From contig NZ_CP100763.1 of NCBI RefSeq assembly GCF_024296685.1, positions 3,658,001 to 3,722,000 of the forward strand: 64,000 bases of DNA, given 5' to 3'. Below the pieces are notes generated by a model, which had not been told where the DNA came from, did not search any database, and was given only the letters and a program-made list of their open reading frames with translations. Of this stretch, positions 12,401 through 61,479 are shown piece by piece. Origin of the DNA: Natrinema marinum (lineage in GTDB: Archaea > Halobacteriota > Halobacteria > Halobacteriales > Natrialbaceae). The position numbers and the translations under genes are program-made. Each line of letters starts with the position of its first letter. Position 1 is the first letter of the stretch.

Positions 12401-13141
12401 ATGAGTGACGCAGACGGCGCGTGGGTCAGCCTCTTCTCCGGTGGCAAGGACTCCTCGTGGGCGCTGTATCAGGCCCTCGAGCGCGGCCTGCCGGTCGAAC
12501 GGCTCGTTACGGTCCACCCTGCGGGCGACTCGTACATGTACCACGTCCCGGCGACGGAACTGGCCGCGCTGGCGGCCGAAAGCATCGGGATCGACCTCGT
12601 CGACGTCGAACCGGACGACTTCGAGGCCGGCGCGGCGACCGACTCGAGCGCACAGGGCGACGACGAACTCGAGCCGCTCGAGGCCGCGCTCGAGGCCCTC
12701 GAGCGCGACCTGCCGGGCGGTATCGCGGGTGTGACGGCGGGCGCCGTCGAGAGCGAGTACCAGACGAGCCGGATTCGGGGGATGTGCGACCGTCTTGGTT
12801 GTGACCTCTTCGCCCCGCTGTGGCAGGAGGATCCGCGGGAACTGGCCGACGCGATGCTCGAGGCCGGCTTCGAGATCGAAATCATCCAGGTCGCGGCCCA
12901 CGGGTTAGACGAGTCGTGGCTGGGCCGGACGCTCGATCGCGAGGCGATCGCCGATCTCGAGGCGCTCAACGAGGAGTACGGCGTCCACATCCTCGGCGAA
13001 GGCGGCGAGTTCGAGACGTTCGTGGTGGACGGCCCGCACATGGATCAGCGGATCGACCTCGAGTACGAGACCGAGTGGGAGGGGACGCGCGGCCGGTTGC
13101 GGATCACGGACGCGACTGCAGTACGGTCGCACCGCGAGTGA
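12401..13141 (+). CDS. dph6: Diphthine-ammonia ligase Dph6-like PP-loop ATPase
   Basis: 246 residues with SGGKDS at 13-18, the PP-loop of ATP pyrophosphatases. SEYQTSRIRGMCDRLG, LFAPLWQEDPRELA and LGEGGEFETFVVDGP are hallmarks of the Dph6/TIGR00290 family, which amidates diphthine in the last step of diphthamide synthesis on elongation factor 2. An acidic stretch near residues 75-90 (EAGAATDSSAQGDDELEP) looks like a haloarchaeal insert. After RLRITDA the C terminus (TAVRSHRE) is atypical and appears to come from inserted DNA: a 103-base copy of the gene's 3' region lies downstream at 13224-13326. Confidence 0.88.
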   Translation: MSDADGAWVSLFSGGKDSSWALYQALERGLPVERLVTVHPAGDSYMYHVPATELAALAAESIGIDLVDVEPDDFEAGAATDSSAQGDDELEPLEAALEALERDLPGGIAGVTAGAVESEYQTSRIRGMCDRLGCDLFAPLWQEDPRELADAMLEAGFEIEIIQVAAHGLDESWLGRTLDREAIADLEALNEEYGVHILGEGGEFETFVVDGPHMDQRIDLEYETEWEGTRGRLRITDATAVRSHRE

Positions 13142-13223
13142 GCGGAGCGAACGAGCGGCTGTTTTTGGTCCAGATTATTGCGCGAGGGGTGAGGGGAGCG
13201 AACCCGAGCGAAAAAGGTGGTTC
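13115..13223 (+). repeat. Spacer element between the two copies of the dph6 3' region
   Basis: These 109 bases separate the two dph6 tail copies. They contain GAGTGAGCGGAGCGAACGAG, which supplies the stop codon of dph6, then an AGCGGCTG-TTTTTGGTC stretch and, near the right end, GAGCGAACCCGAGCGAAAAA. The same order of motifs occurs in the spacer behind purNH, so this looks like one member of a small insertion family. No coding content is seen. Confidence 0.6.
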
Positions 13224-13326
13224 CGAGACGTTCGTGGTGGACGGCCCGCACATGGACCGGCGGGTCGATCTCGAGTACGAGACCGAGTGGGAGGGGACGC
13301 GCGGCCGGTTGCGGATCACGGACGCG
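13224..13326 (+). pseudogene. Duplicated fragment of the dph6 3' end
   Basis: This 103-base segment matches dph6 bases 13012-13114 with only four differences, all in one 15-base stretch; two are silent and two give Gln to Arg and Ile to Val. Read in frame it encodes ETFVVDGPHMDRRVDLEY and onward to RLRITDA, then runs on without an early stop. It is probably the remnant of the original gene end, displaced when the spacer element was inserted. Confidence 0.75.
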
Positions 13327-13384
13327 CTTAGACTGATCGTTCGACCGGCGGTGTTTCGGCTCGCCAGCGTTGGCTGCGGGTCAT

Positions 13385-14083
13385 TCACCACGCCTCGAGG
13401 GTCGCCTCGCGCTCCTCGGGGTCGGTGTACGTCCACCACGCGATTCGATCGAGTTCGAGTGGGGTGTAGCCGGCGACGAACGCCAGCCACTCACAGGAGG
13501 CGATCGTCAGCCGGTCGGTCGCGGTATCGATCGGCGACGACTCGAGGTCGGCGGCGACGGCCTCGAGAAGCCGCTCGATCGTCGGGTCCGGCGTGACGGT
13601 CTCGACGCCGGCCAGCTGGCGCAGATACTGGAACGTCGACGGGCCGACGCCCGAAATCGTCCCGATCGGGTTCTCGTCGTACCGGTAGTGGTCCGCCGTC
13701 GCGGCCCAGTCGACGAGCGCAGTCAGGTCGTCGTCGGCCGATCGGTCCGCGAGCACGCGGGCGATCTCGAGGAGGACCTGTCGCTTGCGCTGCGCGCCGA
13801 GCGCTTCGACGAGGTCGTCGTCCTCGAGATCGACCTCGGCGAGGGCCGCGAACGAATCGACCCGATCGGTCTCGAGGAAGGCGTCGCGAAACCGTTCGAC
13901 GGCCGGTTTGATGCCGTCGACGAACCGCTGGCCGGTCGACGCGGCGGCGGCCTCGGCGATCAGTAACAGGGGGTCGTCACCGGTCCAGCGCCGGAACTCG
14001 CGAAAGTCCGTCGCGAGGTCCTCGTAGGGAACGCCGTCGGCGTAGGGCTCGAGTACCGCTCGAACGGCCGGATCGGGGTGCAT
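13385..14083 (-). CDS. Uncharacterised protein with a HhH-like segment
   Basis: 232 residues, largely helical and acidic, no membrane segments. GTISGVGPSTFQYLRQLAGV followed by TPDPTIERLLEAV resembles the helix-hairpin-helix part of HhH-GPD DNA glycosylases (GxGPxTA..L and then the P-D-T/H segment), but no catalytic lysine or iron-sulfur cysteines are evident. A nucleic-acid-binding role is therefore only a guess. ATG at 14083 is used; a GTG at 14098 would add five residues. It sits downstream of the sugar-nucleotide transferase gene on the same strand. Confidence 0.6.
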   Translation of the reverse strand: MHPDPAVRAVLEPYADGVPYEDLATDFREFRRWTGDDPLLLIAEAAAASTGQRFVDGIKPAVERFRDAFLETDRVDSFAALAEVDLEDDDLVEALGAQRKRQVLLEIARVLADRSADDDLTALVDWAATADHYRYDENPIGTISGVGPSTFQYLRQLAGVETVTPDPTIERLLEAVAADLESSPIDTATDRLTIASCEWLAFVAGYTPLELDRIAWWTYTDPEEREATLEAW

Positions 14084-26616: not shown

Positions 26617-29001
26617 TCACTCGTCGGCCCGGAAGTATGCCGATAGTAGCTTTGCCAGCGCGACGCGGAGGTGCTGGTGGAACGTCTGGCGGGCGATGCC
26701 GAGCCGATCGGCGATCTCACCGGCGTCGCTGTTTCGCGTCGGCCACTCGAAGTAGCCGCCGTGGTAGGCCGCCTCGAGGGCCAGCCGCTGTTTCTCGGTC
26801 AGGGCCGACTCGACGCGCTGCCGGAAGTCGCTCCACGTTTCGACCGGCCGGTCGATGGTTCGCTTCGAGACGAGGCGCGTCTCCGGGTAGGCCGACGTGA
26901 CCGCGTCGTTGAGGTCGCGCAGGTTCGCGTCGGGGCTCACCTGGACCGTGAGTGTTCCAGCGCCGTCGCGCACGGTTTTCGACTGGAGCCGCGCGCCGTA
27001 CTCCGCGAGCAGTGCGGTGATCGTCGCCCCGCGAACGACGATCTCCCAGTAGCTCTCTTCGTCGGTCGCGTCGATCAATCGGGACTCCGTGATCGCCTCG
27101 TCGTCTCTCGCCACCTCCCGGATCCGCTCGGGAGCGGCCCCGGTGACGGTGAGATAGTAGACGAACACCTCGTCGGTCAGCGGCAACACGTGATCGACCG
27201 ACAGCGTACTGCCGGTGAGCGCCGACATCCGAATACAGCTGTCGCCTCGGTCGCTCGACTCGAACTCGAGTTCGACGACGGTGTCCATGTAGAGGAGCCG
27301 TCGAACCGCCATCGCGTTGATCGCGTGGCCGATCGTGCCGCCGAACTCCTGTAACACCTCGCGCTCGCGGTCGGCGAACGCCGACGCCTCGTCGGCCCCG
27401 ACTACTAGCGCGCCGGTCGGCCGATCGGCAGCGACGATCGGGACGACCGCGATGGCCTCGTAGCCCCGTTCGCGAGCGTCGGTCCGCCACTCGTCGATGG
27501 GACTCTCGGAGAGATGGCGGTATCGCTGGACCGTTCGGGTTTCGAACGGTGACGTTCCCGACGCGTCGGCCGGCGGATCGACGAACGACGCGAGCACGCC
27601 GTCGGCCGCCGGCTCGTCGATCCCCGCCCAGATTTCGGGATCCCAGGCGTGGCCGTCGGCCCTCGCGGCAGGTTCTACTCGCCCGATGGCCGCAAAGCGG
27701 TAGGCGTCGGCGGCGGCGAACTCCTCGACGATCGCCGTTTCGATCTCCTCGCGCGTCTCCGCCGCGACTATCGTCTCGTCGATCGCCCTGATGACCGCGT
27801 TGAGCCGCTCGAGGCGCTTGAGTTCCCGTTCGCGCGCCTTTCGCTCGCTGATATCGCGGCCGACGCCGGTGTAGCCGAGGACATTGCCCTCGTCGTCGGT
27901 GATCCGGGCACTGTTGAACTCGTAGGGGATCCGACGCCCGTCCTCGGTGATGACTCGCCCCTCGGCGGTCACGCGCTCCCCCTTCTCGAGAATGCGCTCG
28001 ATCGCCTCGCTGATGTGTTCGTGATCCTCTGGTGCGATGAACGTAAGCGGATCTATGTCGTCGAGGTCGTCTAGGTCGTAATCGGCCGCGAGCTCGAACC
28101 GCCCGTTCCACTGAATCAGATTCCCCTCGGTATCGTACGCGTAGAGCACGTCCGGCTGGGCCTCGAGGAGGCTCTCGGTGAACGCTTTCTCCTCGCGCAG
28201 CGCCCGTTCGCGGGCCTTTCGCTCGCTGATATCGCGGCCCGTGCCCGTGAAGCCGAGGACATTGCCCTCGTCGTCGGTGATCCGGGCGCTGTTGAACTCG
28301 TAGGGGATCCGACGGCCGTCTTTCGTGAGGAGATCCGCTTCGACGGTGACGTGTTCATCTCCCTCGAGCGCGCGTTGGATCGCCTCGTCGATCCGCTCGC
28401 GGTCCGCCGGGGCGACGAACTCCAGCGGTGTCATCTCGGCCAGCTCCGACTCGCTGTAGCCCGTTACCGCAGGCACGCGGTCGTTCCACTCGAGGTAGTT
28501 CCCTTCCGCGTCGAACGCGTAGACGATGTCCGGCTGCGCCTCGAAGACGTTCTCCGCGAAGGCTTTCTCCTCGCGGAGTTCCCGTTGGCGCTCGTGTTCT
28601 TCGGTACGGTCGCGAACGAACCAGACGTACCCCCGCAGGTCGGTCTCGGCATCGATGGGGTCACCGATCGTCCCGTCCGCGCCGATCGTGGCGACGATGT
28701 CGCGGGCCCACAGTCGGCGTTCCTCCGCCCCGATACGCCAGCCGTTGTCTTCGACCGTCCCGTCGGTCTGGGCCCGCTCGAGCAACTGGTTCGGTCGACC
28801 GGAGTCGCGGGCGGCCGGCGGGAAGAGGGTCCGGTAGTGTGAGCCGAGGATGGCTCCCTCGTCGTACCCCGTGAGTCGTCGAGCTCCGTCGTTCCAGCCG
28901 GTGACGACGCCGTCCGAATCCAACGGTACGACGGCGGCGTCGCTGTCGAGGGTGCTCAGCTCGGTGATCTCGAGACTGACCTCGTCTAGCGTGCTGTCCA
29001 C
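26617..29001 (-). CDS. PAS/GAF sensor regulator with Bat-type HTH output
   Basis: 794 residues from a GTG. There are three PAS domains (about 20-145, 150-265 and 275-395; the second and third have nearly identical cores such as FNSARITDDEGNVLG), a GAF domain (about 410-555) and a Bat-like beta domain (about 565-720). The C-terminal HTH contains LTEKQRLALEAAYHGGYFEWP and IADRLGIARQTFHQHLRVA. Bat proteins activate bacterioopsin and related genes in response to oxygen or light; the ligand and target here are unknown. A perfect inverted repeat lies about 90-105 bases upstream. It diverges from dtdA. Confidence 0.9.
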   Translation of the reverse strand: MDSTLDEVSLEITELSTLDSDAAVVPLDSDGVVTGWNDGARRLTGYDEGAILGSHYRTLFPPAARDSGRPNQLLERAQTDGTVEDNGWRIGAEERRLWARDIVATIGADGTIGDPIDAETDLRGYVWFVRDRTEEHERQRELREEKAFAENVFEAQPDIVYAFDAEGNYLEWNDRVPAVTGYSESELAEMTPLEFVAPADRERIDEAIQRALEGDEHVTVEADLLTKDGRRIPYEFNSARITDDEGNVLGFTGTGRDISERKARERALREEKAFTESLLEAQPDVLYAYDTEGNLIQWNGRFELAADYDLDDLDDIDPLTFIAPEDHEHISEAIERILEKGERVTAEGRVITEDGRRIPYEFNSARITDDEGNVLGYTGVGRDISERKARERELKRLERLNAVIRAIDETIVAAETREEIETAIVEEFAAADAYRFAAIGRVEPAARADGHAWDPEIWAGIDEPAADGVLASFVDPPADASGTSPFETRTVQRYRHLSESPIDEWRTDARERGYEAIAVVPIVAADRPTGALVVGADEASAFADREREVLQEFGGTIGHAINAMAVRRLLYMDTVVELEFESSDRGDSCIRMSALTGSTLSVDHVLPLTDEVFVYYLTVTGAAPERIREVARDDEAITESRLIDATDEESYWEIVVRGATITALLAEYGARLQSKTVRDGAGTLTVQVSPDANLRDLNDAVTSAYPETRLVSKRTIDRPVETWSDFRQRVESALTEKQRLALEAAYHGGYFEWPTRNSDAGEIADRLGIARQTFHQHLRVALAKLLSAYFRADE
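27825..27942. repeat. Internal PAS repeat, copy 1
   Basis: This 118-base segment of the PAS gene is nearly identical to 28203-28320. It encodes the end of one PAS domain and the linker (FNSARITDDEGNVLG ... GRDISERKARER). It reflects a recent in-frame duplication or gene conversion between PAS domains. Confidence 0.75.
28203..28320. repeat. Internal PAS repeat, copy 2
   Basis: Partner of the segment at 27825-27942, 378 bases away centre to centre, equal to 126 codons, the size of one PAS domain plus linker. Differences are few and mostly silent. Confidence 0.75.
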
Positions 29002-57138: not shown

Positions 57139-57555
57139 TCACATCGACATCAGCGCGATGGCCAGTACGCTCAGTCCGATCGCGGCGAGCTTGCGGGCGG
57201 TAACGGCCTCGTCGAAAGCGACGATGCCGACGAGCGAGCTGACGACGATGAACAGACCGTAGATCGGCACGACGACGCTGACCGGGCCGAGCGCGAGCGC
57301 CCGGTAGTAGGTCAGCAGGCCCACGGTCAACAGGACGCCCAGCGCGGCGATGTACGGCGTCCGTGGATGGCGGAGATAGGGCCGGACGGACAGTCCGCGA
57401 GCGCGGATCACCAGCCCGACGGTGACGAACATCACCGAGTTCGAGAGGAACACCGCGAGCGTACTGGGGAGGTCGGTCATCGCGAGCGAGAGCAGCGGGG
57501 CGACCAGGCTGTAGGCCAGACAGGCGACGATCGAGAGCTCGAGGTACCGTCGCAT
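57139..57555 (-). CDS. Half-size EamA-type transporter, second of a pair
   Basis: 138 residues with about five membrane helices. YYRALALGPVSVVVPIYGLFIVVSSLVGI is the EamA signature; only one EamA domain is present, where typical members have two. It overlaps the upstream paralogue by ATGA, so the two probably assemble as a heterodimer. The substrate is unknown. Confidence 0.82.
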   Translation of the reverse strand: MRRYLELSIVACLAYSLVAPLLSLAMTDLPSTLAVFLSNSVMFVTVGLVIRARGLSVRPYLRHPRTPYIAALGVLLTVGLLTYYRALALGPVSVVVPIYGLFIVVSSLVGIVAFDEAVTARKLAAIGLSVLAIALMSM

Positions 57556-57977
57556 CACTCCTCACCCCCGGCGGCGAGGTAGATCGCGACCGCCGCGACG
57601 ACGATGCCAGCCGCGCGGGTGACGGTCAGCTCCTCGCCGAGAAAGACGATCCCGATGACCGAGCTCCCGACGATGAAGAGACCGTAGATCGGCACGACGA
57701 CACTGACTGGCCCCCGCTCGAGCGCCCGATAGTACGCCAAAATTCCGATCGAGAGGAAGAGCCCGGCGACGTAGACGATTCCCGCTGCGGGGGTGGTCGC
57801 GTCGACGGGCCGGCCGGTTTCCGTAACGAGCAAGACGACGGTCGTCAGAGAGAGGAAGATCGTCGTCGAGAGGAAGAGCGCGACCGCGGGCGGCACGTCC
57901 GTGGTGACGACGCTCGTCAGCGGTGCGACGAGCCCGTAGGCCACGAGGGCGACGATCACCCACAGCAGGTACTCCAT
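57555..57977 (-). CDS. Half-size EamA-type transporter, first of a pair
   Basis: 140 residues, five helices. YYRALERGPVSVVVPIYGLFIVGSSVIGI is nearly the same core as in the next gene, so the pair arose by tandem duplication. Its stop overlaps the start of the second half-transporter. Confidence 0.82.
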   Translation of the reverse strand: MEYLLWVIVALVAYGLVAPLTSVVTTDVPPAVALFLSTTIFLSLTTVVLLVTETGRPVDATTPAAGIVYVAGLFLSIGILAYYRALERGPVSVVVPIYGLFIVGSSVIGIVFLGEELTVTRAAGIVVAAVAIYLAAGGEE

Positions 57978-59647: not shown

Positions 59648-61285
59648 ATGACGCGAATCGCCGGGATGGCCGGCAACCGAGGGCGCAACCTGTTGAATAT
59701 CGCCGACCGACGGCCGGGCGGGGCCGAATTTGCCGTGATCCTGACGAACGCGGAAGACGCGCCGGTGCTCGAGGCTGCAGCGGAACGCGGGATTCCGACC
59801 GAAGTCGTCCCGATGGACGACGACATGAGCCGCCGCGAGCACGAGGAGGCGGTGCTCGAGGCACTCTCGGAGTACGACTTCGACCTCGTCTGTCTGGACG
59901 GCTACATGCGGATCCTCTCCGACACGTTCCTCGAGGAAGCGCCGACGACGCTGAACGTCCACCCCGCCCTGTTACCGTCGTTCCCCGGGATGGACGCCTG
60001 GGGCGACGCGCTCGAGGCCGGCGTCTCGGTGACCGGCTGTACGGTCCACGTCGTCACCGACGCGACCGACGAGGACGGCGACGTGATCGAGTCGGAGGTC
60101 GACGCCGGCCCGATCGTCACGCAGGAGCCGATCCCGGTCTACGAGGGCGACGACGAAGAGAGTCTGAAAGAGCGAGTCCTCTACGAGGGCGAGTTCCGCG
60201 CGTACCCCCGCGCCGTGAAGTGGTTCGCCGAAGGCGTGGCCAACGTGGATCTCGAGGCCGGCGAGGTCTCGGTCGACGCCGACGTGGCGAGTACCGACGC
60301 GGATGACCACGACGGGCTGCCCGCCCGCCGACTGATTTCGGACGACCGTGCGGACACGCTCCGCTACGGCGAGAACCCACACCAGGACGCGGCGGTATAC
60401 GCCGACTACACCGCGGACGAGGCCAGCGTCGTCCACGCCGACCAACTGAACGAGGGCGCGAAGGCGCTGTCGTACAACAACTACAACGACGCCGACGGCG
60501 CGCTGAATCTGATCAAGGAGTTCGACGAGCCCGCGGCGGCGGTCATCAAGCACACCAACCCCGCGGGCTGTGCGACCGCCGATTCGCTCGCCGAGGCCTA
60601 CGAGAAAGCGCTCTCGACGGACCCGATGAGCGCCTTCGGCGGCATCGTCGCGCTCAATCGGGAGTGCAACGTCGCGACTGCGGAGCAGATTATCGACTCG
60701 TTCAAGGAGGTCGTCGTCGCGCCGGGCTACACCGACGACGCGCTCGAGGTGCTCTTCGAGAAGGACAACCTGCGAGTGCTCGACGTGGGCGAACTCGGCG
60801 AGCGCACCGAGCGCTTCACCGAGAAGCCCCTCGTCGGCGGCCGACTGGTCCAAGAGCGCGACCTCCAGTCTATTTCGGCCGACGACCTCGAGGTCGTCAC
60901 CGAACGCGAGCCGACCGACGAGGAACTCGAGACGATGGTCTTCGCCTGGCAGACGCTCAAACACGTCAAGTCCAACGGCATCCTCTTCGCGGACGGCACC
61001 GAGACGGTCGGCATCGGCATGGGGCAGGTGTCCCGCGTCGACGCGGTTCGGCTGGCGGCGATGAAGGCCGACGAACACGCCGAGGGCAAGGACGCGGAGG
61101 GCGCGGTCATGGCCTCCGACGCGTTCTTCCCGTTCCCGGACGGGATCGAGGAGGCCGCCGAGGCGGGCATCGAGGCGGTCGTCCAGCCCGGTGGCTCGGT
61201 CAACGACGAGGACGTGATCGAGGCCGCGGACGAACACGGGATGGCGATGGCGTTCACGGGGCAGCGGTCTTTCAGACACGATTAG
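59648..61285 (+). CDS. purNH: Fused GAR transformylase (PurN) and AICAR transformylase (PurH domain)
   Basis: 545 residues. Residues 1-215 are a PurN-type formyltransferase (AGMAGNRGRNLLNI, HPALLPSFPGMDAWGDALEAGVSVTGCTVHVVTDATDEDG). Residues 225-545 are the AICAR transformylase half of PurH (LRYGENPHQDAAVYAD, ALSYNNYNDADGAL, KHTNPAGCA, AFGGIVALNRECN, DAFFPFPDG). The N-terminal IMP cyclohydrolase domain of PurH is absent, as in haloarchaea that use a separate cyclohydrolase. The end AMAFTGQRSFRHD is repeated downstream. Confidence 0.93.
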   Translation: MTRIAGMAGNRGRNLLNIADRRPGGAEFAVILTNAEDAPVLEAAAERGIPTEVVPMDDDMSRREHEEAVLEALSEYDFDLVCLDGYMRILSDTFLEEAPTTLNVHPALLPSFPGMDAWGDALEAGVSVTGCTVHVVTDATDEDGDVIESEVDAGPIVTQEPIPVYEGDDEESLKERVLYEGEFRAYPRAVKWFAEGVANVDLEAGEVSVDADVASTDADDHDGLPARRLISDDRADTLRYGENPHQDAAVYADYTADEASVVHADQLNEGAKALSYNNYNDADGALNLIKEFDEPAAAVIKHTNPAGCATADSLAEAYEKALSTDPMSAFGGIVALNRECNVATAEQIIDSFKEVVVAPGYTDDALEVLFEKDNLRVLDVGELGERTERFTEKPLVGGRLVQERDLQSISADDLEVVTEREPTDEELETMVFAWQTLKHVKSNGILFADGTETVGIGMGQVSRVDAVRLAAMKADEHAEGKDAEGAVMASDAFFPFPDGIEEAAEAGIEAVVQPGGSVNDEDVIEAADEHGMAMAFTGQRSFRHD

Positions 61286-61437
61286 GGCCGCGAACGACCG
61301 GAAGCGCGGCGCTACGCGCCGCGATACGACGAGCGGCCCCGGCCGCGAGTCAGTGAGTGAGCGGCTTTTTGGTCGAGATCTTTCGAGAAGGGCGAGCGAG
61401 CGTAGCGAGCGAACCCGACGAGAAAAAGGTCGATGCC
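61286..61437 (+). repeat. Spacer element between the two copies of the purNH 3' end
   Basis: 152 bases. Right after the stop is a nested hairpin: GGGCCGC (61286-61292) pairs with GCGGCCC (61332-61338), enclosing a GC stem. Then come GTGAGTGAGCGGC, TTTTTGGTCGAGAT and, near the right end, GAGCGAACCCGACGAGAAAAAGG. The last blocks match the spacer behind dph6 in order. Confidence 0.6.
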
Positions 61438-61479
61438 GCGATGGCGTTTACGGGGCAGCGAAGGTTCCGTCACGACTGA
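61438..61479 (+). pseudogene. Duplicated 42-base 3' end of purNH with its own stop
   Basis: In frame it encodes AMAFTGQRRFRHD and a TGA, against AMAFTGQRSFRHD and TAG at 61244-61285. The left 23 bases are almost identical; the right 19 differ in codon choice yet keep the peptide. It is probably the ancestral gene end, with the present end rebuilt by inserted DNA. Confidence 0.7.

Follow-up and report, generated by a model that had tools for sequence, protein, structure and literature searches.

Positions 12401 to 13141 on the forward strand of the window (the whole 64,000-nt stretch of Natrinema marinum DNA that was analysed) hold a gene which, judging from the match of its product to TIGR03679 (266.9 bits, E-value 9.7e-80) and from the list of open reading frames, is a canonical archaeal dph6, encoding diphthine–ammonia ligase. 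The functional, gene-proximal copy of its 3′ end (copy A, 13012 to 13114) recurs downstream on the same strand as a displaced copy (A′, 13224 to 13326) that lies outside the dph6 coding sequence. A recount gave 99 identical positions out of 103, in agreement with the first-pass annotation. Of the four differences, those at 13045 (GAT in A, GAC in A′) and 13057 (GAC/GAT) are silent substitutions in the dph6 frame, while those at 13047 (CAG/CGG) and 13052 (ATC/GTC) exchange glutamine for arginine and isoleucine for valine, respectively.

The spacer between the two copies, again on the forward strand, has a defined order. Its left part (13115 to 13161) carries the new stop codon and hairpin 1 (ACCGCGAGTGAGCGGAGCGAACGAGCGG), with a predicted fold of −19.5 kcal/mol and a similar hairpin present at other sites. 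This is followed by the element core, E (13162 to 13220), which consists of TTTTTGGT and then hairpin 2 with its covarying base pairs, and whose last bases are GGTGG; it is recognized by our covariance model R1 with 64.1 bits (E-value 3.3e-11) and by the covariation of its family. A short, non-conserved junction, TTC (13221 to 13223), leads into A′ and has counterparts of a few nucleotides at other sites.

Scanning the whole window for repeats, we found equally strong close direct repeats only at 27825 to 28590 and at 57207/57632; since these are protein-internal or paralogous, the dph6 repeat cannot be put down to chance. The former are internal repeats of ∼126 codons spaced by 378 nt, probably PAS-like sensor domains, and the latter is a close paralogous stretch (57207 to 57309 and 57632 to 57734) in membrane-protein-like coding sequence, with copies 425 bp apart.

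Because the sequence 3′ of the TDA codons is spacer-derived, the dph6 reading frame ends in ...TDATAVRSHRE*, its last eight codons (TAVRSHRE) stemming from the insertion and its last codons being GAGTGA; the tail proposed from the sequence alone thus agrees with the open reading frame. Such an end is indeed atypical, as Dph6 orthologues usually end in TDA-x-L-x*, but the displaced copy reads ...TDALRLIV and departs from the usual form as well. A search for distant orthologues with a TAVRSHRE-like end but no duplication found none; in Natrarchaeobius (L054), where the locus shows no duplication, Dph6 is extended by the tail QLSHKR. What did not hold up was the view of C-terminal replacement as the point of the event, given that most relatives with the insertion keep a normal dph6 end (TDAQLE* or TDARLE*). 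To judge from these ends, replacement of the tail is a side effect seen in a few genomes (the present one and those represented by L020, L052 and L065).

The first-pass annotation treated dph6 as a single locus. While its reading as an insertion with duplication was largely sound, it overlooked that the spacer is conserved and structured, that it recurs in ∼18 gene families, and that the same window holds a second case, at purH (61244 to 61479). In a genome search, spacer-only matches of the dph6 region were obtained at three other places in the present genome, and the element copies have a common core, TTTTTGGTCCAGATTTTTG...AAAAAGGTGG. Allowing up to 3 mismatches, we counted 8 occurrences of the first half of this core in the 3.77-Mb genome, two of them in the window, where the chance expectation is 0.00. 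Relatives from several families of the order carry the core pattern with at most 1 mismatch (59 of 100), and reversed-pattern controls gave none. Model R1, built from an alignment of 19 cores, retrieved 12 copies from the present genome and detected copies in 36 of 41 relatives. Positions 12900 to 13500 gave no Rfam match up to an E-value of 1.

The architecture of the element is directly visible in its copies: hairpin 1, frequently of the form CCGCGAG...CGAGCGG, then a T5-GGT tract, and finally the conserved hairpin 2 (XYAGA-TTTTT...AAAAA-GGT-Y′X′). The foot of the latter is formed by the dinucleotide following GGT and the last two bases of GGTNN, which covary (CC:GG, 106 copies; CG:CG, 11; GC:GC, 4), and Watson-Crick pairs are formed in 245 of 248 cases as compared to a shuffle maximum of 227. 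Across the 19-core alignment, 94.2% of cells pair, and two-sided changes are seen in 11 of the 19 pairs. None of 500 shuffles matches the covariation of the whole structure, and pairing is lost when the columns are slid by 1 to 3. At most sites, hairpin 1 and then TTTTT follow soon after a stop codon, which is the sequence arrangement of an intrinsic terminator. The element is also short, non-coding and dispersed, as expected of a miniature inverted-repeat transposable element (MITE).

The duplication is tied to the element far beyond dph6. We compared the 450 nt on either side of each element by local matching in direct orientation and counted a flanking repeat when the best match scored at least 24; this was so at 76 of 138 element sites, as opposed to 0/138 with an inverted right side and 2/138 with a distant one; at the other 62 sites, no duplication was detectable at this score. 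A stricter later pass yielded 81 sites with a flanking repeat. The right-hand copy begins a few nucleotides past the foot of hairpin 2, and what is duplicated is the terminal part of the upstream gene together with its stop codon, over a length of 30 to 118 nt that differs by gene. Host genes with the duplication fall into ∼18 families across haloarchaea and include dph6, argF, ileS, purH, pheT, an SDR gene, a gene for a PINA-like ATPase (NF010335), those for HisH (TIGR01855) and SufS, and genes for malic enzyme/phosphate acetyltransferase, a metallo-beta-lactamase, a thiolase and methyltransferases; argF, purH, pheT, ileS, etfA, hisF, argG and spt5 were named from sequence, without a family search. 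Families in which the element occurs without A′ are mostly different ones. Elsewhere in the present genome, the A-E-A′ arrangement is seen at the thiolase gene and at argF, where 30 nt with the stop codon are duplicated; at pheT and a few further sites, the element occurs alone.

For the purH case, all parts of which are on the forward strand, A comprises the last 42 nt of the coding sequence (61244 to 61285; the gene name rests on comparison of the C terminus with other loci). The left hairpins of the inserted element, assigned from sequence, occupy 61286 to 61365, and the core, a GGTCGAGA ... GGTCG variant, occupies 61366 to 61432 (R1, 39.1 bits, E-value 2.7e-5). A′, which includes the stop codon (61438 to 61479), is identical to A at 32 of 42 positions, and this repeat was weaker in the window scan than that of dph6. 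Left boundaries can differ within one gene, lying 29 to 30 or 48 to 50 nt out in argF and 31 or 90 nt out in the PINA-like ATPase gene. At L250, the element sits just upstream of a start codon on the opposite strand, and the duplication, of ∼94 nt, takes in the first codons of that gene; gene ends are therefore the rule but not the sole target. At L393, the ileS locus of G042 from another family, the element and a displaced end are accompanied by an altered C terminus of the working gene (DQREASEQASGD).

Empty sites were directly observed for two genes. At the argF locus L354 (G002), the stop codon is followed by CTGTTCGGTCCCGC, whereas at the filled loci L353 and L355 (G016 and G011) it is followed by the element, the displaced copy and CTGTTC.... 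Similarly, in ileS, CCGGTCACGAGGCT comes after the stop codon in the empty G007 and after the displaced copy in the filled G018, and G010 and G015 give the same picture (site pairs: L378 empty versus L379 filled; L374 empty versus L375 filled). The element-free relatives thus join the stop codon to the DNA that lies beyond A′ in filled sites. A′ is therefore located at the ancestral junction, and the element, its hairpin 1 and one copy of the gene end were gained or lost as a unit, so that the original proposal of an insertion with target duplication proves largely right. These sites are not polarised as to gain or loss, because recombination between A and A′ can also make an empty site; among the loci compared, no clean empty/filled sister pair was found for dph6.

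Regarding the right boundary, a site was taken as recent when the two copies were at least 93% identical across the final 30 nt of the gene, which applied to 34 sites; the clean cases place the boundary at, or just past, the stop codon. Identity falls off at the stop codon itself in 15 of the 34. In 15 others it continues past the stop codon, mostly where another unit or hairpin follows, and a few end 7 to 11 nt beyond; we therefore make no claim that insertion always falls exactly on the stop codon's final base. The arrays at L148, L175, L191 and L195 have the form A(EA)n, so that their last unit is A′ and not E. This is the product expected if an initial A-E-A′ had undergone unequal crossing-over, and on the same grounds we reject simple tandem duplication of A-E as the sole origin.

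Once duplicated, A and A′ evolve in concert. Over 19 dph6 loci, there were 5198 concerted sites, at which the two copies within a genome match each other but differ from the pair in another genome, as compared to 54 sites that follow orthology; A and A′ came out as sister tips at 11 of these loci. In all families taken together, differences between A and A′ at codon positions 1, 2 and 3 number 60, 43 and 233, a third-position bias that exceeds the expectation for a free-floating, neutral A′ and that may reflect recombinational exchange with functional alleles; in this tally, as in that of the boundaries, a few argF sites were labelled dph6 (pattern TDA), with the conclusions unaffected. The closest match of an element is often in the same gene family (47 of 77), which indicates that many copies are old and inherited, not recently moved.

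Within Natrialbaceae, the dph6 insertion has a patchy distribution, and it was also seen in Halorientalis salina and a Haloarchaeobius species. Its left boundary lies 114 nt before the stop codon in Natrialbaceae, ∼102 nt in Halorientalis salina and ∼48 nt in Haloarchaeobius (the last two counted by eye), and these differing boundaries suggest that dph6 was struck independently in separate lineages. In one relative (G019:C1:1162591-1163323), dph6 is split into two overlapping frames, be it by a frameshift or as a recombinant, and several relatives have a second Dph6 paralogue of ∼57% identity.

Taken together, we consider it probable, if well short of certain, that the dph6 spacer is a copy of a small (∼90 to 200 bp), non-autonomous, terminator-like insertion element of haloarchaea that inserts at gene ends with a 30- to 118-nt duplication. 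According to this proposal, the element would land beside a gene whose last 30 to 118 nt become direct repeats on both sides, such that the upstream copy A would keep the gene intact or nearly so, and A′ would be displaced downstream. Movement between genes would be that of a mobile element, with an enzyme supplied in trans. Its sequence further predicts that the element acts as a transcription terminator, which would do little harm past a stop codon; tolerance of the element after stop codons is best explained by this terminator-like nature together with a duplication that keeps the gene intact. Subsequent recombination between A and A′ in polyploid cells may produce A(EA)n arrays, precise losses and homogenised copies. 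That we are dealing with a new class, that is, a double-hairpin, terminator-like element with gene-end insertion independent of reverse transcriptase, a variable 30- to 118-nt duplication ending at the stop codon and a surviving gene, is a more tentative suggestion, for which the chances seem somewhat less than even.

The main rival starts from ordinary terminator hairpins: replication or break repair would stall at the base of hairpin 2, jump back and re-copy the gene end, giving A-E-A′ without transposition. Such template switching fits the start of A′ a few nucleotides past that base, the lack of any transposase that tracks the element, and the tandem-duplication-like appearance of L229, L388 and L251, where a further hairpin with its T tract, or a broken second element, comes after A′. 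It is nonetheless unlikely in our view, since the arrays end in A′ instead of E, the gene families with the element alone are mostly other than those bearing A′, and both the empty members of the two ileS sister pairs and the empty argF relative lack the element and hairpin 1, so that the element was gained or lost together with the duplication.

Less probable still is an account by homologous recombination only, in which each gene was struck once, long ago, and circles or fragments carrying A-E then passed between haloarchaea and integrated at A, with no mobility between genes. The frequent closest similarity of elements within one gene family, the third-position bias, as if from other functional alleles, and the patchy spread among genera all speak for such exchange, yet it leaves unexplained why ∼18 families share the same element and geometry and why argF, the PINA-like ATPase gene and dph6 each show two or three left boundaries. 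One might also think of relics of integrative elements (plasmids or proviruses) attached at the 3′ end of a gene and almost wholly deleted, as integrases that target gene ends leave the 3′ end duplicated through the stop codon. This we regard as very improbable, because the same short hairpin element lies at ∼18 unrelated genes, always with ∼0.1 to 0.2 kb and without an integrase, and because its exact core was absent from viral contigs.

As to an enzyme acting on the proposed insertion element, reverse transcriptase (PF00078) was found in 0 of 41 genomes in a search that detected its positive controls, making an RNA-primed mechanism unlikely; a retroelement or SINE-like mechanism is disfavoured accordingly. 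Nor does the presence of a Y1 transposase (PF01797) track the element: it is absent from the present genome and from G004, G007 and G041, the latter three carrying 16 to 37 element copies each. These negative results count against the insertion reading, as do the 62 sites without detectable duplication and the frequent closest similarity of elements within one gene family. Furthermore, known transposases make duplications that are much shorter and less variable than the 30 to 118 nt seen here.

Among known systems, MITEs are likewise short, non-coding, hairpin-forming and dispersed, with direct target duplications on either side. Their target duplications are, however, short and of fixed length, and their terminal inverted repeats match a known insertion sequence, whereas the duplications seen here are variable, 30 to 118 nt long, and end at a stop codon. 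REP/REPIN sequences and other palindromic elements derived from IS200/IS605 resemble the element as imperfect hairpins at gene ends that are moved in trans; REP insertion is not known to give a long target duplication, and in addition the Y1 transposase does not follow the element. Integrative elements at gene 3′ ends (phage or genomic-island att sites, for example, icd) share duplication of the 3′ end through the stop codon; their front copy restores the gene, and the C terminus may change slightly. Such elements run to kilobases, carry an integrase gene and are each tied to a single target gene, whereas here ∼0.1 to 0.2 kb without an integrase gene separates A from A′, in ∼18 genes. The element thus resembles a MITE or a gene-end integrative element, yet fails a defining feature of each. 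For archaeal U-tract terminators, mapping of 3′ ends in Haloferax gave T stretch, AGATC and hairpin motifs (PMC7237163), which the element recalls through its T tract past the coding region and its hairpins, a kind of structure that can terminate transcription. The part of that study considered here describes neither the element nor a gene-end duplication (PMC7237163).

No description of the element was found in the openly licensed papers searched, which is weak evidence of absence, and it is apparently an undescribed element that is widespread in Halobacteriales. The apparently odd local duplication in dph6 is accounted for as one member of a widespread element. Filled and empty sites at one gene provide natural pairs for studying how a short element inserts with long duplications, and the same pairs bear on the sparing of gene ends and on gene conversion in polyploid archaea. 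For annotation, C-terminal tails and orphan gene ends beside such hairpins should be viewed with caution as insertion products.

Finally, there are relatives of the element which, by sequence, appear to have moved recently, as suggested by near-identical copies of a repeat and by one foot variant that is nearly identical at unrelated loci. The repeat, ∼158 bp long, dispersed and MITE-like, contains a variant hairpin1-T5-hairpin2 module in Natrinema genomes (L294:3131-3288, G014 and homologues); G014 holds six copies of 97 to 100% identity, and G007, G018 and G021 give 20 or more matches. Next to the L295 copy, the DNA on the right repeats the start of the repeat. The foot variant, GGTCGAGA...GGTCG, is nearly identical at the unrelated loci L311, L312, L268, L269 and L279, where A′ is lacking. 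It sits in a longer common sequence, with GGGGGAGGGCAGGCG upstream and GTGAGTGCTTTTAATCGAAATTTTGCCGAGGG downstream at some loci, and may be a separate mobile unit.
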